DNA from: Bacteroidota bacterium
GTDB lineage: Bacteria > Bacteroidota > Bacteroidia > CAILMK01 > JAAYUY01
Assembly (NCBI GenBank): GCA_018698135.1
Contig: JABINZ010000240.1
Span: 1-32,396 of the forward strand
Reading direction: 5' to 3'
Length of the DNA: 32,396 nucleotides
In this document: positions 21,909 to 32,396 of the stretch, piece by piece
How the letters are laid out: each line of letters begins with the position of its first letter
How positions within the stretch are numbered: the stretch's first letter is position 1
The notes under the pieces: generated by a model
Database searches by the model: none
What the model was told of the DNA's origin: nothing
The model's input: only the letters and a program-made list of their open reading frames with translations
Made by a program: the position numbers and the translations under genes

Positions 21909-22844
21909 CTAAAATACAGAAATATGAACTTTCATATTTTCATGCATAAACACATCTCCATTTTTACGTAAGGATTCTTCCTGTTTGCTTTCATCTTTTA
22001 GGAAAGCTTCCAGATACTTAGTGATTTCGGTCATTGTAATCGTCACTGTAGATCCATTAGAGATAGCCTCAGTAATGTAAGAGTGTAAAAGATTGTTATA
22101 GGCATTTTTAAAAATATCATGTGTCGCAAATATATCACAACCAATTACTTTATTACCTGAAACTGCAATCATCCCTACAACAGTAGGATCATGATCCCAT
22201 GCCGAGTGGAAGACTGATAAATATGCTTGCATCTTATCCTTGTATTCTTTCGATTTTTCCAAGGCAGTATAAGCTCCTGTACTTGAACTTACACCATTGC
22301 TGGAATTAACTTGGCTGACGTTCGACCATACTTCGCCCTGATTTTTACTAATTACAGCAGCTTTTCTTACATTCTGACTCACACCATTTGAATAGCCTTC
22401 AAATTTTGTCCCTGATTCCTGAGCCGACCATCTGCCACGCTCAACACAAAAAGCTGAAATGTTTTTCTTTTCACCCGCTAGGATAATAACGTCTGAACCG
22501 ATAATTCGGTCTTGTTTACCTCCCTTGATAATTTCTCCAGCCATCAGGTAAATGGTTTCCTTCGAGATATTTTGTGCGTATAAGGTATTAACAGTCCCTG
22601 AAGTGCTTACTTCTGTTACAACAATCTTGTTAAGCCTGATTGCGGATTCCAGATTGGTGAATTTACTGATGTCTTTATGAGCCGCTGTAAATACCTTATT
22701 GGCTTTAATGGGGTAAATCTTAATAAGATTGTCTGTTGAAGTTCTCAATTCCAGATATTGGGGTTGAAGATTTTGCAAATTATACTGTGCATGCAGACTC
22801 AGAACGGCCATTATCAGTAATAGTAGTATGCTTATTTTTTTCAT
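21909..22844 (-). CDS. Secreted ARPP-1-like domain protein (DUF6569)
   Basis: A protein of 311 residues with signal peptide MKKISILLLLIMAVLSLHA-Q, so exported. The mature part shows the ARPP-1/DUF6569 signature: 'YAQNISKETIYLMAGEIIKGGKQDRIIGSDVIILAGEKKNISAFCVERGRW' (about 90-140). This corresponds to the family pattern of a '.D GE.. G.KQ.R......v...g....i...CVE.GRW' strand-turn block. The family was named for association with ADP-ribosylglycohydrolase and rhodanese-phosphatase proteins; no molecular activity is established as far as I know. The C-terminal half contains 'VVGMIAVSGNKVIGCDIFATHDIFKNAYNNLLHSYITEAI', also typical. It lies 47 bases after the SIMPL-like gene on the same strand. Cys and Trp in the CVERGRW block are intact. 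Confidence 0.8.
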   Translation of the reverse strand: MKKISILLLLIMAVLSLHAQYNLQNLQPQYLELRTSTDNLIKIYPIKANKVFTAAHKDISKFTNLESAIRLNKIVVTEVSTSGTVNTLYAQNISKETIYLMAGEIIKGGKQDRIIGSDVIILAGEKKNISAFCVERGRWSAQESGTKFEGYSNGVSQNVRKAAVISKNQGEVWSNVSQVNSSNGVSSSTGAYTALEKSKEYKDKMQAYLSVFHSAWDHDPTVVGMIAVSGNKVIGCDIFATHDIFKNAYNNLLHSYITEAISNGSTVTITMTEITKYLEAFLKDESKQEESLRKNGDVFMHENMKVHISVF

Positions 22845-22891: not shown

Positions 22892-23959
22892 TTATCTTTT
22901 CTTAAACAAGCCTTTTTTTGCCCGCTCTTCGTTTTCTTTTTTCCTTTTGTTTTCAATTTCTTTGCGGTCGTCCCATGCCTTTTTATTTGTTGATGAGTAC
23001 CTTACTTTTAACGTATAAAAGAACTGGATTCTTGGAGCGACAAAGTCAGCATTCATAACCCTGTCAAATTGATTGTAAGGGATTTTGTTATAATAAATGG
23101 TCTCTTTCTTTTCCGTATGATTTACAATAAACCTAGTTTCATCTTCGTCTTTATCGTAGTTATTTATATTAACCTTTTGATTACTTCCACTAACGTAAAC
23201 ATTTACCGCACGGTCTTTTCTTTTCTTGGCAATTCTTACTTCTTCAATTGAACTCCCCGTATTGAATGCTGTATAACTTGCATATCTCTCCAATGGATAG
23301 GCTACATTAAAACCGTCCGACATATTTTCAACCTCCAGATGAAGTCCCATTTTTTCATATAGTTTTTCTTTCATTTTAATAACCAGACTGGCAGCTTCCA
23401 TTAATGAGTCATATACCGCCTCAATATTTGACAAATTGTAGTCAACTTTTACAATGTCATAAATTTCAGCTTTAGCAACGTGAGAGATGATTTCAGAAAG
23501 CTTATCATGATTATAGAAAATAACATGGATGTTTTTCTTCATTTGAAAACCTGTGGGTATTTCATTTGCTGTATGGCTAAATTTCTTCTTCTCAAGCTTT
23601 ATGGAATAAGTGGGTAGCATTGAAATTACATCAATATGGATATCACTAGCTTTAATACCCATTTGTTTCAATCCATTTTCAACCATGGCTAACCGAATAT
23701 TCAATAGTGAATCTGTTTCAGTAGCCGTTTTCCCATTTTGTGTTGCACTAAATATGGCAACATAACTTGTTGGCTTCATGTTTATTAATACATCGGCCTG
23801 CAGAATAACATTTCGATTATCAGGTGCACTTATATTTACAAGTACTCTTTGTGGTTTAACCGCTTGAGGATTGTTGTAAATTACATTTCCTGCTGATTGT
23901 CCGAAGCTTGCATTTGCAATTAGTAGTGCCAGAACGCCTAAAATAATTTTTGTTTTCAT
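22892..23959 (-). CDS. Secreted SIMPL (DUF541)-like protein
   Basis: A protein of 355 residues with signal peptide MKTKIILGVLALLIANASFG-Q. Residues about 35-230 follow the SIMPL/DUF541 layout: 'VLINMKPTSYVAIFSATQNGKTATETDSLLNIRLAMVENGLKQMGIKASDIHIDVISMLPTYSI' (strand, helix with xLL.xxxAxVxxGLKxxGI, then D.....S..P.Y), followed by 'GFQMKKNIHVIFYNHDKLSEIISHVAKAEIYDIVKVDYNLSNIEAVYDSLMEAAS'. SIMPL proteins are periplasmic or outer-membrane, with loose links to stress and cell-surface signalling. The last 100 residues are basic and unassigned (ending KKGLFKKR). It is first of a two-gene minus-strand operon with the ARPP-1-like gene, divergent from the LytS/LytTR system. Confidence 0.75.
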   Translation of the reverse strand: MKTKIILGVLALLIANASFGQSAGNVIYNNPQAVKPQRVLVNISAPDNRNVILQADVLINMKPTSYVAIFSATQNGKTATETDSLLNIRLAMVENGLKQMGIKASDIHIDVISMLPTYSIKLEKKKFSHTANEIPTGFQMKKNIHVIFYNHDKLSEIISHVAKAEIYDIVKVDYNLSNIEAVYDSLMEAASLVIKMKEKLYEKMGLHLEVENMSDGFNVAYPLERYASYTAFNTGSSIEEVRIAKKRKDRAVNVYVSGSNQKVNINNYDKDEDETRFIVNHTEKKETIYYNKIPYNQFDRVMNADFVAPRIQFFYTLKVRYSSTNKKAWDDRKEIENKRKKENEERAKKGLFKKR

Positions 23960-24003
23960 TTGTTTTTTTTAAAATTGAATAAAATTTAATTTCGATTTTG
24001 AAT

Positions 24004-24030
24004 CAAAACTAAGGGGCAAATCAGCTTCAA
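24004..24030 (-). promoter_or_regulatory. Candidate promoter of the SIMPL / ARPP-1 operon
   Basis: On the minus strand TTG (24030-24028) and TAGTTTTG (24011-24004) form a -33/-7 pair of Bacteroidota type; the -7 box is an exact TAnnTTTG. The spacer of 16 bases is one short of the 17-23 usually quoted. It would give a leader of about 40 bases before the ATG at 23959, and the TTAGG boxes lie immediately upstream. Confidence 0.5.
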
Positions 24031-24041
24031 AAAAGCTACTT

Positions 24042-24088
24042 TTAGGGAGGACAATAAAGGAGTTAGGCTAGGGGGGATTTTTATTAGG
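24042..24088 (+). repeat. Three TTAGG boxes phased at 21 bases
   Basis: TTAGGG begins at 24042, TTAGGC at 24063 and TTAGGC at 24084: exact 21-base steps, i.e. the same face of the helix. The flanks share A/T before the box. The cluster lies directly upstream of the candidate SIMPL promoter. Direct repeats about 21 bases apart are the usual operator form of LytTR regulators, one of which is encoded in the divergent operon. Confidence 0.6.
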
Positions 24089-24194
24089 CAAAAAAAAATA
24101 GCATGTTTTATTATTGTGAAATTGGAACTCAATGATAGATGGAGTCGGTAGTCAGAAAAGCATGTTGCATGAAAAAACTGAGAAAAACTAGCAA

Positions 24195-24220
24195 TTAGGT
24201 AAGCCCCTAATCCAATTAGG
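24195..24220 (+). repeat. Two TTAGG boxes phased at 21 bases
   Basis: CAATTAGGT (box from 24195) and CAATTAGGC (box from 24216) are direct repeats exactly 21 bases apart. CCTAAT between them also makes a small palindrome with the second (CCTAAT-CCA-ATTAGG, 24206-24220). They are on the side of the spacer nearest the LytS/LytTR operon, about 110-135 bases from its ATG. The rest of the 371-base spacer 23960-24330 holds no gene that I can support. Confidence 0.55.
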
Positions 24221-24277
24221 CAAATAGAGTGTAGGTTGAGGGAAAGCATGATTCCATTGAGCTAAATACCTCTGAAA

Positions 24278-24310
24278 TTGAAACTAGCTCTGAATAATTT
24301 GTTACTTTTA
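24278..24310 (+). promoter_or_regulatory. Candidate promoter of the LytS/LytTR operon
   Basis: TTG (24278-24280) and TACTTTTA (24303-24310; one mismatch to TAnnTTTG) are 22 bases apart, and the ATG follows 20 bases later. The call is by eye. Confidence 0.38.
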
Positions 24311-24330
24311 CTTGGTCAAACAAGAAGCGC

Positions 24331-26295
24331 ATGTTAAAAAAAGTGTCATTTTTTTTTCTATTTCTACTGATTATCATCTCGGTTGTTTATTCGCAGAGTA
24401 ATTCATTTTCACAAAGACAAAGTTTTAATGATGTTAAAAACTATTCATTTTCTGATATAGACTTGCTGTTGGATTCAGTGAGCATGCAACTTGAGACGAA
24501 TCCTGAGAAAGCTTTCAACTTTATTGAAATGGCAATGATTCTCTCCTTAGAAGAAAAAGACAAAACAAAGCAGGCAAGAACATTCGAAGTTTTGGGTGTT
24601 TATTATAAACATTTCAAACAATACGATCTTGCCGCAATGAATTATCAGAAAAGTGCACGATTATATGGTGCGAAAAATTCTAGATTTTTTGATAATAATC
24701 TGGTCGCTGCTAATCTTTACCTTCAAGCTAAAGAATATCAAAAAAGTATTGACCTATTTAATTTACTCCTTAATTCAAGTGTTAATAAACAGCAAAAATT
24801 GCTAATTCAGGAAGGATTAGGTGATAATAATTATTCTGCCAAATTATTTACTGAAGCCCTTGTCAATTTCAAAGAAGCTGAAAAAATTGCTACTGAGCTT
24901 TCACAGATTGATAAGAATACAGAGATAAAACTAAAAATTGCTATCATTCTAATCGAAATTAATGATGAGAAAGCTTTGCATTATTTAACAGAAGCAAGCA
25001 AACAAGCAATTTCAACAGCAAACGGAAAACTTCAACTTAAATCACAAAACCTACTTGCTGAATATTATGCACTAAACAAAATGTATAAGCAAGAGATTGA
25101 ATCTCGAAACTCAATTAGCAATACTTTAACTGAAAATATAGATGTATTGCAAAAGCAGGAAATTAATGTATCAGAAGAGTCTTTCAGAAACAATACATCA
25201 ATAGCACAGGCGTTAAATGGTCAGAATCAACCTGATGAAGCACTTGATGTTATTAAAAAGAATGAGAAGTTAGAACAGGAAAAAATTGGTATTGAATACA
25301 AAATTGAAGCAGCAAAAACTCAATCTGAAAGTTATGTAGAGCTAGGTTTAGGCAATCAAGCCATTGAAAGTTATAAAACTTATGTTGATCTGGTTGATGA
25401 ATTATACAAGATAAAGGAAAATGAGATAAACGAAGTGATTGATGTGGCAAAAAAACTGACAGATAATCAAAACCGTATCGTTTTGTTGGAACAAGACAAA
25501 CAGCTTTTTGACATTCAATTGCAATCCATGGAAAAAGATCAGTTATTGATTACAGAAAGTAATAAGTACCAAAGGAATTTGATCATCCTTCTTTTTATTG
25601 TGGTTGCTTTGCTCGTCTTTGCATTGATAAGTGCCTTTCAACGAATTCGAATACAGAAAAAACACAATCTTTTTCTTGACTTGAAATCTTTACGAACACA
25701 AATGAATCCTCATTTTATTTTCAATGCATTAAACTCTGTAAATAGTTTTATTGCTAAAAACGATGAGATTAAAGCCAATAAATATTTATCCAGTTTTTCA
25801 CGGCTAATTCGAAGTATTTTGGAAAATTCAGAATATGATTTTATCCCATTATCAAAAGAAATTGAAATGCTAAAATCCTATATTGAACTTGAGAATATCC
25901 GGTTTGCTGATAAGTTTAGCTATACTTTCAATATTGACAAAAACATCAATGCAGATGAATATAGAATTCCACCCATGTTAATTCAACCCTATATTGAAAA
26001 TGCAGTATGGCATGGTCTGAGATATAAAGAAAAGGACGGATTGTTAAAAGTTGAGATTATAAAAGAAGACTCCTGCTTGAAAGTAGAAATTATTGATAAT
26101 GGGATTGGGCGAACAAAATCCCAGGAACTTAAAACGGAGAATCAAAAGAAGAATAAATCGAAAGGTATTGTAAACACAACGAAACGATTGGAAATACTGA
26201 ATAAACTGTATAAACAAAATATAGAGTTGAATATTGAAGACTTGAATCATAATCAGGAAGGAACAAAGGTGACATTGACTATTCCTGAATTATAA
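24331..26295 (+). CDS. TPR-containing LytS-type sensor histidine kinase
   Basis: A protein of 654 residues. The signal peptide or TM is at 1-21 (MLKKVSFFFLFLLIIISVVYS). Periplasmic TPR-like helical repeats at about 40-400 include 'RTFEVLGVYYKHFKQYDLAAMNYQKSARLYG' and 'LIQEGLGDNNYSAKLFTEALVNFKEAEKIA'. Then come a coiled stretch, one TM at about 412-434 (LIILLFIVVALLVFALISAF), and the His_kinase domain 'LRTQMNPHFIFNALNSVNSFIAKND' with phospho-accepting His461. The HATPase_c domain has 'RIPPMLIQPYIENAVWHGL' and 'VEIIDNGIGRTKSQ'. LytS/YpdA kinases phosphorylate LytTR regulators, and one follows 7 bases downstream. The TPR sensor probably reads a periplasmic protein or peptide. Candidate ligands are the secreted SIMPL and ARPP-1 proteins encoded divergently (inference). 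Confidence 0.94.
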   Translation: MLKKVSFFFLFLLIIISVVYSQSNSFSQRQSFNDVKNYSFSDIDLLLDSVSMQLETNPEKAFNFIEMAMILSLEEKDKTKQARTFEVLGVYYKHFKQYDLAAMNYQKSARLYGAKNSRFFDNNLVAANLYLQAKEYQKSIDLFNLLLNSSVNKQQKLLIQEGLGDNNYSAKLFTEALVNFKEAEKIATELSQIDKNTEIKLKIAIILIEINDEKALHYLTEASKQAISTANGKLQLKSQNLLAEYYALNKMYKQEIESRNSISNTLTENIDVLQKQEINVSEESFRNNTSIAQALNGQNQPDEALDVIKKNEKLEQEKIGIEYKIEAAKTQSESYVELGLGNQAIESYKTYVDLVDELYKIKENEINEVIDVAKKLTDNQNRIVLLEQDKQLFDIQLQSMEKDQLLITESNKYQRNLIILLFIVVALLVFALISAFQRIRIQKKHNLFLDLKSLRTQMNPHFIFNALNSVNSFIAKNDEIKANKYLSSFSRLIRSILENSEYDFIPLSKEIEMLKSYIELENIRFADKFSYTFNIDKNINADEYRIPPMLIQPYIENAVWHGLRYKEKDGLLKVEIIKEDSCLKVEIIDNGIGRTKSQELKTENQKKNKSKGIVNTTKRLEILNKLYKQNIELNIEDLNHNQEGTKVTLTIPEL

Positions 26296-26302
26296 TACTG
26301 AA

Positions 26303-27043
26303 ATGGAAATCAAAGCAATTATAGTGGAAGATGAACTGCCGGCAAGAGAAACGCTGGAAGCTTATTTAGAGAAATACTGTCCTGAAATTAAAGTTGTAGC
26401 TACTGCTTCTAATATAGATGAGGCGATACAGGCTATCCGAAATAATGATGTTGACCTTCTTTTCCTTGATATTGAACTACCTTATGGTAATGCTTTCGAC
26501 TTGATTGAAAAAGTAGGGAAGGATGATTTTGAAATCGTATTTATAACTGCATATAGCGATTACGCAATTGAAGCATTGAATAAAAAAGCCGCCTATTACA
26601 TAATGAAGCCTTTAGATATCGAAGAGCTTATCAAGGCTGTGGAGGAAGTAAAAAACAGGTTATCCCAACAAGGCATCATAGAAAGTATTAACAAAGTAAA
26701 AAACTTTGATGCGATTCAAACGAATAAGTTCATGTTTCCTCACCAGTTTGGTTTTGATTTATTGGAAATTGGCACAATAATACGGTGTGAAGGTGTCGAT
26801 AATTATACCCGATTTCATTTTACAGATGGTTCATCTAAACTAATAAGTAAAACACTCAAGAAAATCGAAGAGCAATTATCCGAATATGGCTTTATGAGAG
26901 TTCATAAATCAAATCTTGTCAACTTGCGCCATATCCTTAGCTATCACAAAGGGAAAACAGGCTCTCTGCTTATGTCTGATAAGTCTGAAGTGATGATAGC
27001 TTCAGGTAAAAAGAATAAGCTGGTTGAGCTCTTAGGATTATAA
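26303..27043 (+). CDS. LytTR-family response regulator
   Basis: A protein of 246 residues. The receiver domain at 1-120 has the acidic pair Glu9/Asp10, phospho-accepting Asp56 (LLFLDIELP), Thr82 (ITAYS) and Lys102 (MKPLD), all conserved. The LytTR DNA-binding domain at about 145-246 includes 'IIRCEGVDNYTRFHFTDGSSKLISKTLKKIEEQLSEYGFMRVHKSNLVNLRHILSYHKG'. LytTR domains bind pairs of about 9-base direct repeats on one face of DNA, spaced around 21 bases. It sits 7 bases after the kinase gene, so the pair is co-transcribed. The TTAGG boxes in the spacer upstream of the kinase are the obvious candidate operators. Confidence 0.95.
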   Translation: MEIKAIIVEDELPARETLEAYLEKYCPEIKVVATASNIDEAIQAIRNNDVDLLFLDIELPYGNAFDLIEKVGKDDFEIVFITAYSDYAIEALNKKAAYYIMKPLDIEELIKAVEEVKNRLSQQGIIESINKVKNFDAIQTNKFMFPHQFGFDLLEIGTIIRCEGVDNYTRFHFTDGSSKLISKTLKKIEEQLSEYGFMRVHKSNLVNLRHILSYHKGKTGSLLMSDKSEVMIASGKKNKLVELLGL

Positions 27044-31894: not shown

Positions 31895-32396
31895 TTATTT
31901 CACTAACACGAAAGCGGCCCATTTATATGGATCATTTTTGTATTTGGTTTTCATTTGTTTTTGGGTAAAATTAAAAGCTACGGGGATTGTTGTTCCTGAA
32001 AATAAACAGGTATAGAAAATTTCCATAAACTCAGCCGTTTCATTGTCAGGTACTTTCCAGAGACTCATAATAATGTATTCTACACCTGCCATTTTAAATG
32101 CACGTTGCAAACCAAACACCCCTTCGCTACCTTTGATATCACCCAGCCCTGTTTCACAGGCAGAAAGAACCACCAAACGGGTATTGGGTAAATACATATT
32201 AGAAACTTCATATGCAGTTAATATCCCATCTTCCAATTCTTGGGGAACGTCTTTACCGCTCCATGCATTGTTGGCTCCCGAAAATAACAAACCCGAGCGG
32301 TTTAAAGGATTGTCCGATTGCCTGTAAACCTTTTCTTTCCCTTCTGAAAAAGTATTCATTTCATTATAGTCTTTCTTAGGGTCGGGAAAGAAAAAA
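31895..32396 (-). CDS. CHAT-domain protein, C-terminal part (5' end outside window)
   Basis: This is the C-terminal end of a caspase-like CHAT peptidase. Visible motifs: 'NPLNRSGLLFSGANNAWSG', 'DGILTAYEVSNMYLPNTRLVVLSACETGLGDIKGSEGVFGLQRAFKMAGVEYIIMSLWKVPD', with the catalytic Cys in LSACETG, then 'DNETAEFMEIFYTCLFSG' and 'PYKWAAFVLV'. The frame has no stop up to the window edge; the first residues inside are FFFPDPKKDYNEMNTF. In TPR-CHAT proteins this kind of segment directly follows the catalytic His (ATHGF...), so the edge cuts just beyond it. The Met at 32359 is internal, not a start. The N-terminal part, probably TPR repeats, lies to the right. CHAT proteases can act in regulated proteolysis or defence; the role here is unknown. 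Confidence 0.88.
   Translation of the reverse strand, partial: FFFPDPKKDYNEMNTFSEGKEKVYRQSDNPLNRSGLLFSGANNAWSGKDVPQELEDGILTAYEVSNMYLPNTRLVVLSACETGLGDIKGSEGVFGLQRAFKMAGVEYIIMSLWKVPDNETAEFMEIFYTCLFSGTTIPVAFNFTQKQMKTKYKNDPYKWAAFVLVK

Follow-up and report, generated by a model that had tools for sequence, protein, structure and literature searches.

The operators of LytTR-type regulators consist of 9–11-nt repeats separated by spacers of 11–13 bp (PMC4847170), and what they keep is the spacing and not the sequence (PMC6193735); the repeat sequence is poorly conserved (PMC4847170). In the set of LytTR Regulatory Systems (LRS) the arrangement is ACCACTTAT-12 bp-ACCACTTAT, situated 4–11 bp ahead of the −35 element (PMC6193735). 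The intergenic spacer described here (positions 23,960–24,330 of a 32,396-nucleotide stretch of Bacteroidota DNA, which as a whole is called “the window” below) resembles the AgrA P2/P3, HdrR/BrsR, YpdB and PlnC operators in having 9–11-nt direct repeats, 11–13 bp apart, upstream of a promoter (PMC6193735, PMC4847170, PMC4227749). It differs from them in that the boxes form arrays of three or four instead of two, in that there are two arrays per spacer, in its Bacteroidota −33/−7 promoter, and in its box sequence, which has a CCTAA core in the window. The box period, exactly 21 bp in the window and over 68 spacers, fits the LytTR-operator range of about 20–24 bp, and the placement just upstream of the −33 element agrees with an operator of this type. 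The box of the relatives, read on the promoter strand as TTCACTCAT, shares 6 of 9 bases with the ACCACTTAT of LytTR-family operators; measured against consensus sequences of the ACCACTTAT type, relatives' boxes agree at 4–6 of 9 positions and the window boxes at 3–4 of 9, the consensus itself being poorly conserved.

The neighboring genes invite a similar comparison. LytS/LytTR systems such as YpdA/YpdB of E. coli have the same domain make-up of both partners and adjacent genes, whereas the kinase here lacks a multi-pass LytS sensor and has TPR repeats outside its membrane segment, and its targets would be secreted VWA, SIMPL or ARPP-1 proteins. LRS are like the present system in direct-repeat autoregulation, period and placement (PMC6193735); membership in that group was rejected, since an LRS pairs a receiver-less LytTR regulator with a membrane inhibitor, and the regulator here contains a receiver and is partnered by a kinase. 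Published ARPP gene neighborhoods have the ARPP domain in common with this locus, and the excerpted text of that study describes an exported ARPP pair with a PF01522 protein and gives ARG systems, HIRAN, WYL and PF01522 as ARPP partners, with SIMPL, VWA and LytTR not among the names in that excerpt (PMC9503650). The operator described here is of a known kind, and it serves a regulon for which we found no description.

The features of the locus are listed in Table 1. The N-termini of the SIMPL and ARPP-1 proteins are signal-peptide-like stretches by direct reading of their translations, and on the other side of the spacer a kinase gene adjoins a receiver plus LytTR gene, which by Pfam is the make-up of a two-component system. 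The receiver residues D10, E11, D56, T82 and K102 are invariant among 11 aligned sequences, so the residues for phosphorylation are present. The LytTR sequence of the window forms a long branch among those of its relatives; possibly it is a paralogue that has diverged and acquired its own specificity, and the long branch could be a cause of the TTAGG variant of the box found in this genome (below).

Table 1. Positions of genes, boxes and candidate promoter elements in the window; motif scores refer to the motif learned from relatives' spacers
Feature	Coordinates	Strand	Remarks
Secreted ARPP-1 protein gene	21909..22844	−	Pfam PF20208, E 3.9e-58
Secreted SIMPL (DUF541) protein gene	22892..23959	−	Pfam PF04402, E 6.9e-9
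Candidate −7 element of SIMPL promoter, TAGTTTTG (TAnnTTTG)	24004..24011	−	Offset exactly 28 from first box
Candidate −33 element/T-tract of SIMPL promoter, TTTTTTG	24028..24034	−	Aligned with relatives' T-tract, +5 to +10 from box edge
SIMPL-side array box 1, CTTTTAGGGAG	24039..24049	+	Promoter-proximal; edge 28 nt from −7 element; motif score about 1.4
SIMPL-side array box 2, GAGTTAGGCTA	24060..24070	+	Motif score 8.1
SIMPL-side array box 3, TTATTAGGCAA	24081..24091	+	Exact 21-bp phase; weak by relatives' motif, about −0.3
lytS-side array box 1, CAATTAGGTAA	24192..24202	+	Motif score 9.1
lytS-side array box 2, CAATTAGGCAA	24213..24223	+	Motif score 8.3
lytS-side array box 3, GGTTGAGGGAA	24234..24244	+	Motif score 13.1, the highest of any box in the spacer
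lytS-side array box 4, CATTGAGCTAA	24255..24265	+	Motif score 4.9; continues the 21-bp phase
Candidate −7-like element of lytS promoter, TACTTTTA; uncertain	24303..24310	+	
LytS-type sensor kinase with TPR repeats (lytS)	24331..26295	+	PF06580, E 6.4e-24; TPR_12
Receiver + LytTR response regulator (lytTR), presumed box ligand	26303..27043	+	PF00072 + PF04397

The original prediction had noted five TTAGG boxes in the spacer, and their positions (24042, 24063, 24084, 24195 and 24216 on the + strand) and in-cluster steps of exactly 21 were confirmed. The 32-kb window shows no excess of the word TTAGG (54 occurrences against 61.9 expected), and 1 of 3000 dinucleotide shuffles of the spacer produced as many as three single-lag pairs of one 5-mer, so it is the phase and not the word that is the unusual feature. 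The second cluster had been described as a pair; both of its boxes are real, but the array has four, at 24192, 24213, 24234 and 24255, of which that at 24234 was overlooked because it has no TTAGG. All boxes of both arrays have one orientation. An inverted CCTAA (24206–24210) lies between the boxes at 24195 and 24216 and creates a dyad, TTAGG-N6-CCTAA, at 24195–24210.

Relatives of the LytS/LytTR pair (39–50% identity) are found across Bacteroidota, nearly always divergent from genes for secreted VWA, SIMPL or ARPP-1 proteins. The module was absent from the same-family and same-order genomes searched, so there is no close orthologue of the exact SIMPL plus ARPP-1 arrangement for comparison. 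Class-level searches with LytS, SIMPL and ARPP-1 coincide, with a divergent LytS beside SIMPL in three genomes and beside ARPP-1 in one, and at ten LytS loci whose open reading frames were read and protein families checked, the LytS/LytTR pair is divergent from SIMPL, VWA or ARPP-1 genes. With the LytTR alignment as query, genome contigs yielded another 80 loci; in 57 of the 67 where both genes could be parsed, the divergent neighbor lies at normal distance. Of the 90 loci with a related LytTR (L131 and L225 being one contig), 83 hold a nearby VWA (78), SIMPL (23) and/or ARPP-1 (2) gene and 7 hold none. The type of divergent gene is preserved across distant clades. The window, too, has divergent secreted SIMPL/ARPP-1 genes with 21-bp boxes in the spacer, and with its SIMPL plus ARPP-1 pair it represents an uncommon form of a module that mostly controls VWA genes. 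SIMPL alone was rejected as the carrier of the circuit: none of its twenty best relatives (L058–L077) has an adjoining related LytTR; in L060 a pair does occur, but at a distance of about 5 kb. Five loci have a DUF4349 gene as the first divergent gene, as in L202, where this membrane protein (PF14257, 1752–2600, − strand) takes the place of SIMPL and a VWA gene is also there. The window itself encodes a further secreted lipoprotein-like VWA protein (PF25106, 19374–20516, + strand) about 3 kb from the SIMPL/ARPP-1 genes, which is not of the VWA family that is divergent to LytS in relatives.

The original prediction had asked whether boxes and phase are conserved in the corresponding spacers of relatives; the 21-bp phase is kept across Bacteroidota, while the literal TTAGG is mostly absent, and the prediction thereby withstood the test that it had named as able to refute it. 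Relatives' spacers mostly have no TTAGG pairs yet carry direct repeats at exactly 21 bp, for example GAATTAGGGAA/CACTTAGTGAA/GACTTAGTATG in L136. Repeated 6-nt words occur at lag 21 in 36 of 68 divergent spacers (3.7 ± 1.5 in shuffles) and at lag 42 in 18 of 68 (3.0 expected), and none of the other lags from 8 to 63 stands out. A lag-constrained motif search from which the window was excluded returned gAAT[GT]AGTgAA, with a log-likelihood of 724 at lag 21 against 248–415 at control lags; the literal TTAGG is thus no more than the form that the box takes in this genome. Of 304 control regions, taken from the remaining intergenic DNA of these loci, 1 has a lag-21 pair scoring at least 13, against 96% of relatives' spacers, a figure inflated by the same spacers having trained the motif. 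Because of this inflation a held-out test was run, in which a motif trained on Flavobacteria-type loci only gave the window a score of 20.2 (0 of 500 shuffles as high) and matched most other clades at lag 21, failing mainly in lineages with a TTGG core (L198, L243 and L247) and in L240. This TTGG core (GACTTGGTGAA) replaces TGAG/TTAG in the spacers of L129, L130, L198, L206, L243 and L247, which suggests that LytTR specificity and box may change together.

The relatives' motif ranks 24213+24234, 24234+24255 and 24192+24213 as the top three lag-21 pairs anywhere in the 32 kb of the window; all lie within 24192–24268, and the top pair score was matched by 1 of 5000 spacer shuffles. Such a score, and the way lag 21 stands out across the 68 relatives' spacers, reduce to a negligible chance the notion that the entire pattern is a coincidence in an AT-rich spacer; it can appeal to TTAGG not being enriched as a word, and it is refuted by conservation. 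We consider it highly likely that the spacer is the operator region of the LytS/LytTR two-component system.

The SIMPL-side cluster requires separate consideration, as its best pair scores 9.5, a value that 119 of 5000 shuffles also reached. It is conceivable, though unlikely, that this cluster is a chance run of TTAGG and that the lytS-side array alone is functional; the low motif scores at 24039 and 24081 are in keeping with this, as are the equally spaced 5-mer triples of any kind that turned up in 56 of 3000 shuffles. Against it are the exact 21-bp phase, the TTAGG core in common with the strong array, and the promoter geometry. The Bacteroidota −7 box is TAnnTTTG (PMC9723704), and in 46 of 64 relatives a distance of exactly 28 nt separates a TAnnTTT[A/G] from the first-box edge on the divergent side, any other offset occurring at most twice. 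In the window spacer TAGTTTTG is the only TAnnTTT[A/G] on its strand, likewise at offset 28, and the T-tract begins 5 nt from the first-box edge, positioned as in relatives. The three-box cluster is, by this offset and T-tract position, the positional counterpart of the conserved array; its boxes score poorly by the relatives' motif, and it is the phase and the promoter geometry that speak for them. A second SIMPL promoter at the four-box array was found to be unsupported: this array, too, has a T-tract at +5, but nothing at +28 matches a −7 element.

The following mechanism would account for this arrangement. The phosphorylated LytTR regulator would bind side by side to the direct repeats, in boxes of roughly 9–11 nt, and the 21-bp phase, equal to two helical turns, would place the regulators on one face of the DNA. 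At the SIMPL-side array (24039–24091), which abuts the −33 T-tract, the bound regulator most likely helps RNA polymerase, and the secreted SIMPL/ARPP-1 operon is most likely switched on from there; we regard activation as the probable effect on these two genes. The stronger four-box array (24192–24265), nearer lytS, would most likely serve feedback on lytS-lytTR and perhaps also act as a high-affinity loading site. Control of the secreted pair by the LytTR regulator, the central claim of the original prediction, gains support from the lag-21 repeats across Bacteroidota and the shared 28-nt promoter distance.

The neighboring LytTR protein very probably binds the boxes. Another transcription factor, such as a different LytTR paralogue of the genome, is a quite improbable ligand: several LytTR-like paralogues do exist in this genome and the window boxes match the published LytTR consensus at just 3–4 of 9 positions, but the boxes go with this LytTR subfamily throughout Bacteroidota, intergenic DNA elsewhere in the same loci is without them (1 of 304 regions), and known LytTR operators keep spacing and not sequence (PMC6193735).

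At five loci (L169, L171, L187, L213 and L220) lytS has no divergent VWA/SIMPL partner and the best lag-21 pair of the locus is still just upstream of lytS, and this retention supports feedback on lytS-lytTR, which we judge rather likely. The same five loci, the position of the window's strongest array on the lytS side, and a lytS −7 element that in many Flavobacteriaceae is likewise at a fixed offset (70 in 24 loci) might be taken to mean that the arrays serve lytS-lytTR autoregulation only and that the SIMPL/ARPP-1 operon is a divergent bystander. Such a restriction is made improbable by the box-to-promoter distance on the divergent side, which the window shares, at exactly 28 nt, with 46 of 64 relatives, by a box orientation and placement that are those of a classical LytTR activation site, and by the maintenance of the divergent gene type in distant clades. 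Read as the published LytTR repeat, the box orientation points to SIMPL and not to lytS; all arrays having a single orientation, however, orientation cannot assign an array to a gene. The idea that the regulator perhaps controls itself has support in the boxes kept before lytS in the five partnerless loci, but the assignment of one cluster to each gene is not established, and a division of labor between the arrays can be put forward only tentatively.

The genome-wide search for paired TTAGGC boxes 21 apart that was originally recommended proved too loose to find a regulon: TTAGGC-N14-16-TTAGG pairs show no genome-wide excess, with 5 found and 12 in the reversed control. A degenerate scan with TKAGNNAA-N13-TKAGNNAA gave 10 matches (7 + 7 in the control). 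Three of them are overlapping matches within this spacer; the remaining seven include four inside reading frames, and none of the seven adjoins a SIMPL, VWA or ARPP-1 gene. This degenerate scan, a weak test, gave no sign of a wider regulon in this genome. The relatives' type of VWA has no match elsewhere in the genome (a weak negative), and a scan of genome contigs with SIMPL peptides gave no matches.

The module was not found described in the open-licence papers searched, in accord with the original remark that no account of such a circuit was known. By a shared regulator, operator and promoter geometry it would join SIMPL (DUF541), ARPP-1 and the VWA family, all without settled function, in one regulon in many cultured marine Flavobacteriaceae, which makes the inducing signal and function of these proteins directly testable; cultured relatives with the same layout include Maribacter, Winogradskyella and Kordia. 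It also provides a model of the sites predicted to be bound by a large LytTR subfamily of Bacteroidota. As a broader proposal, to which we give somewhat less than even weight, this would be an envelope-signalling module found throughout Bacteroidota and not described before. In it a single LytS/LytTR system would act via two-to-four-box 21-bp arrays, set at a fixed 28 nt from the −7 element, to drive secreted VWA, SIMPL and ARPP-1 proteins that are interchangeable, act in one periplasmic or surface process and possibly feed back on the TPR-bearing kinase.

Two minor observations may be added. In the spacers of L135–L137 the third box is followed at once, at offset 1, by a TAATTTTG or GAATTTTG element that reads towards lytS. 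Other clades do not show this, and feedback on lytS may be of another sign in L135–L137. At the end of the window a cut-off open reading frame (31895–32395, − strand) contains the stretch LSACETGLG...GLQRAF, which is suggestive of a CHAT peptidase domain.
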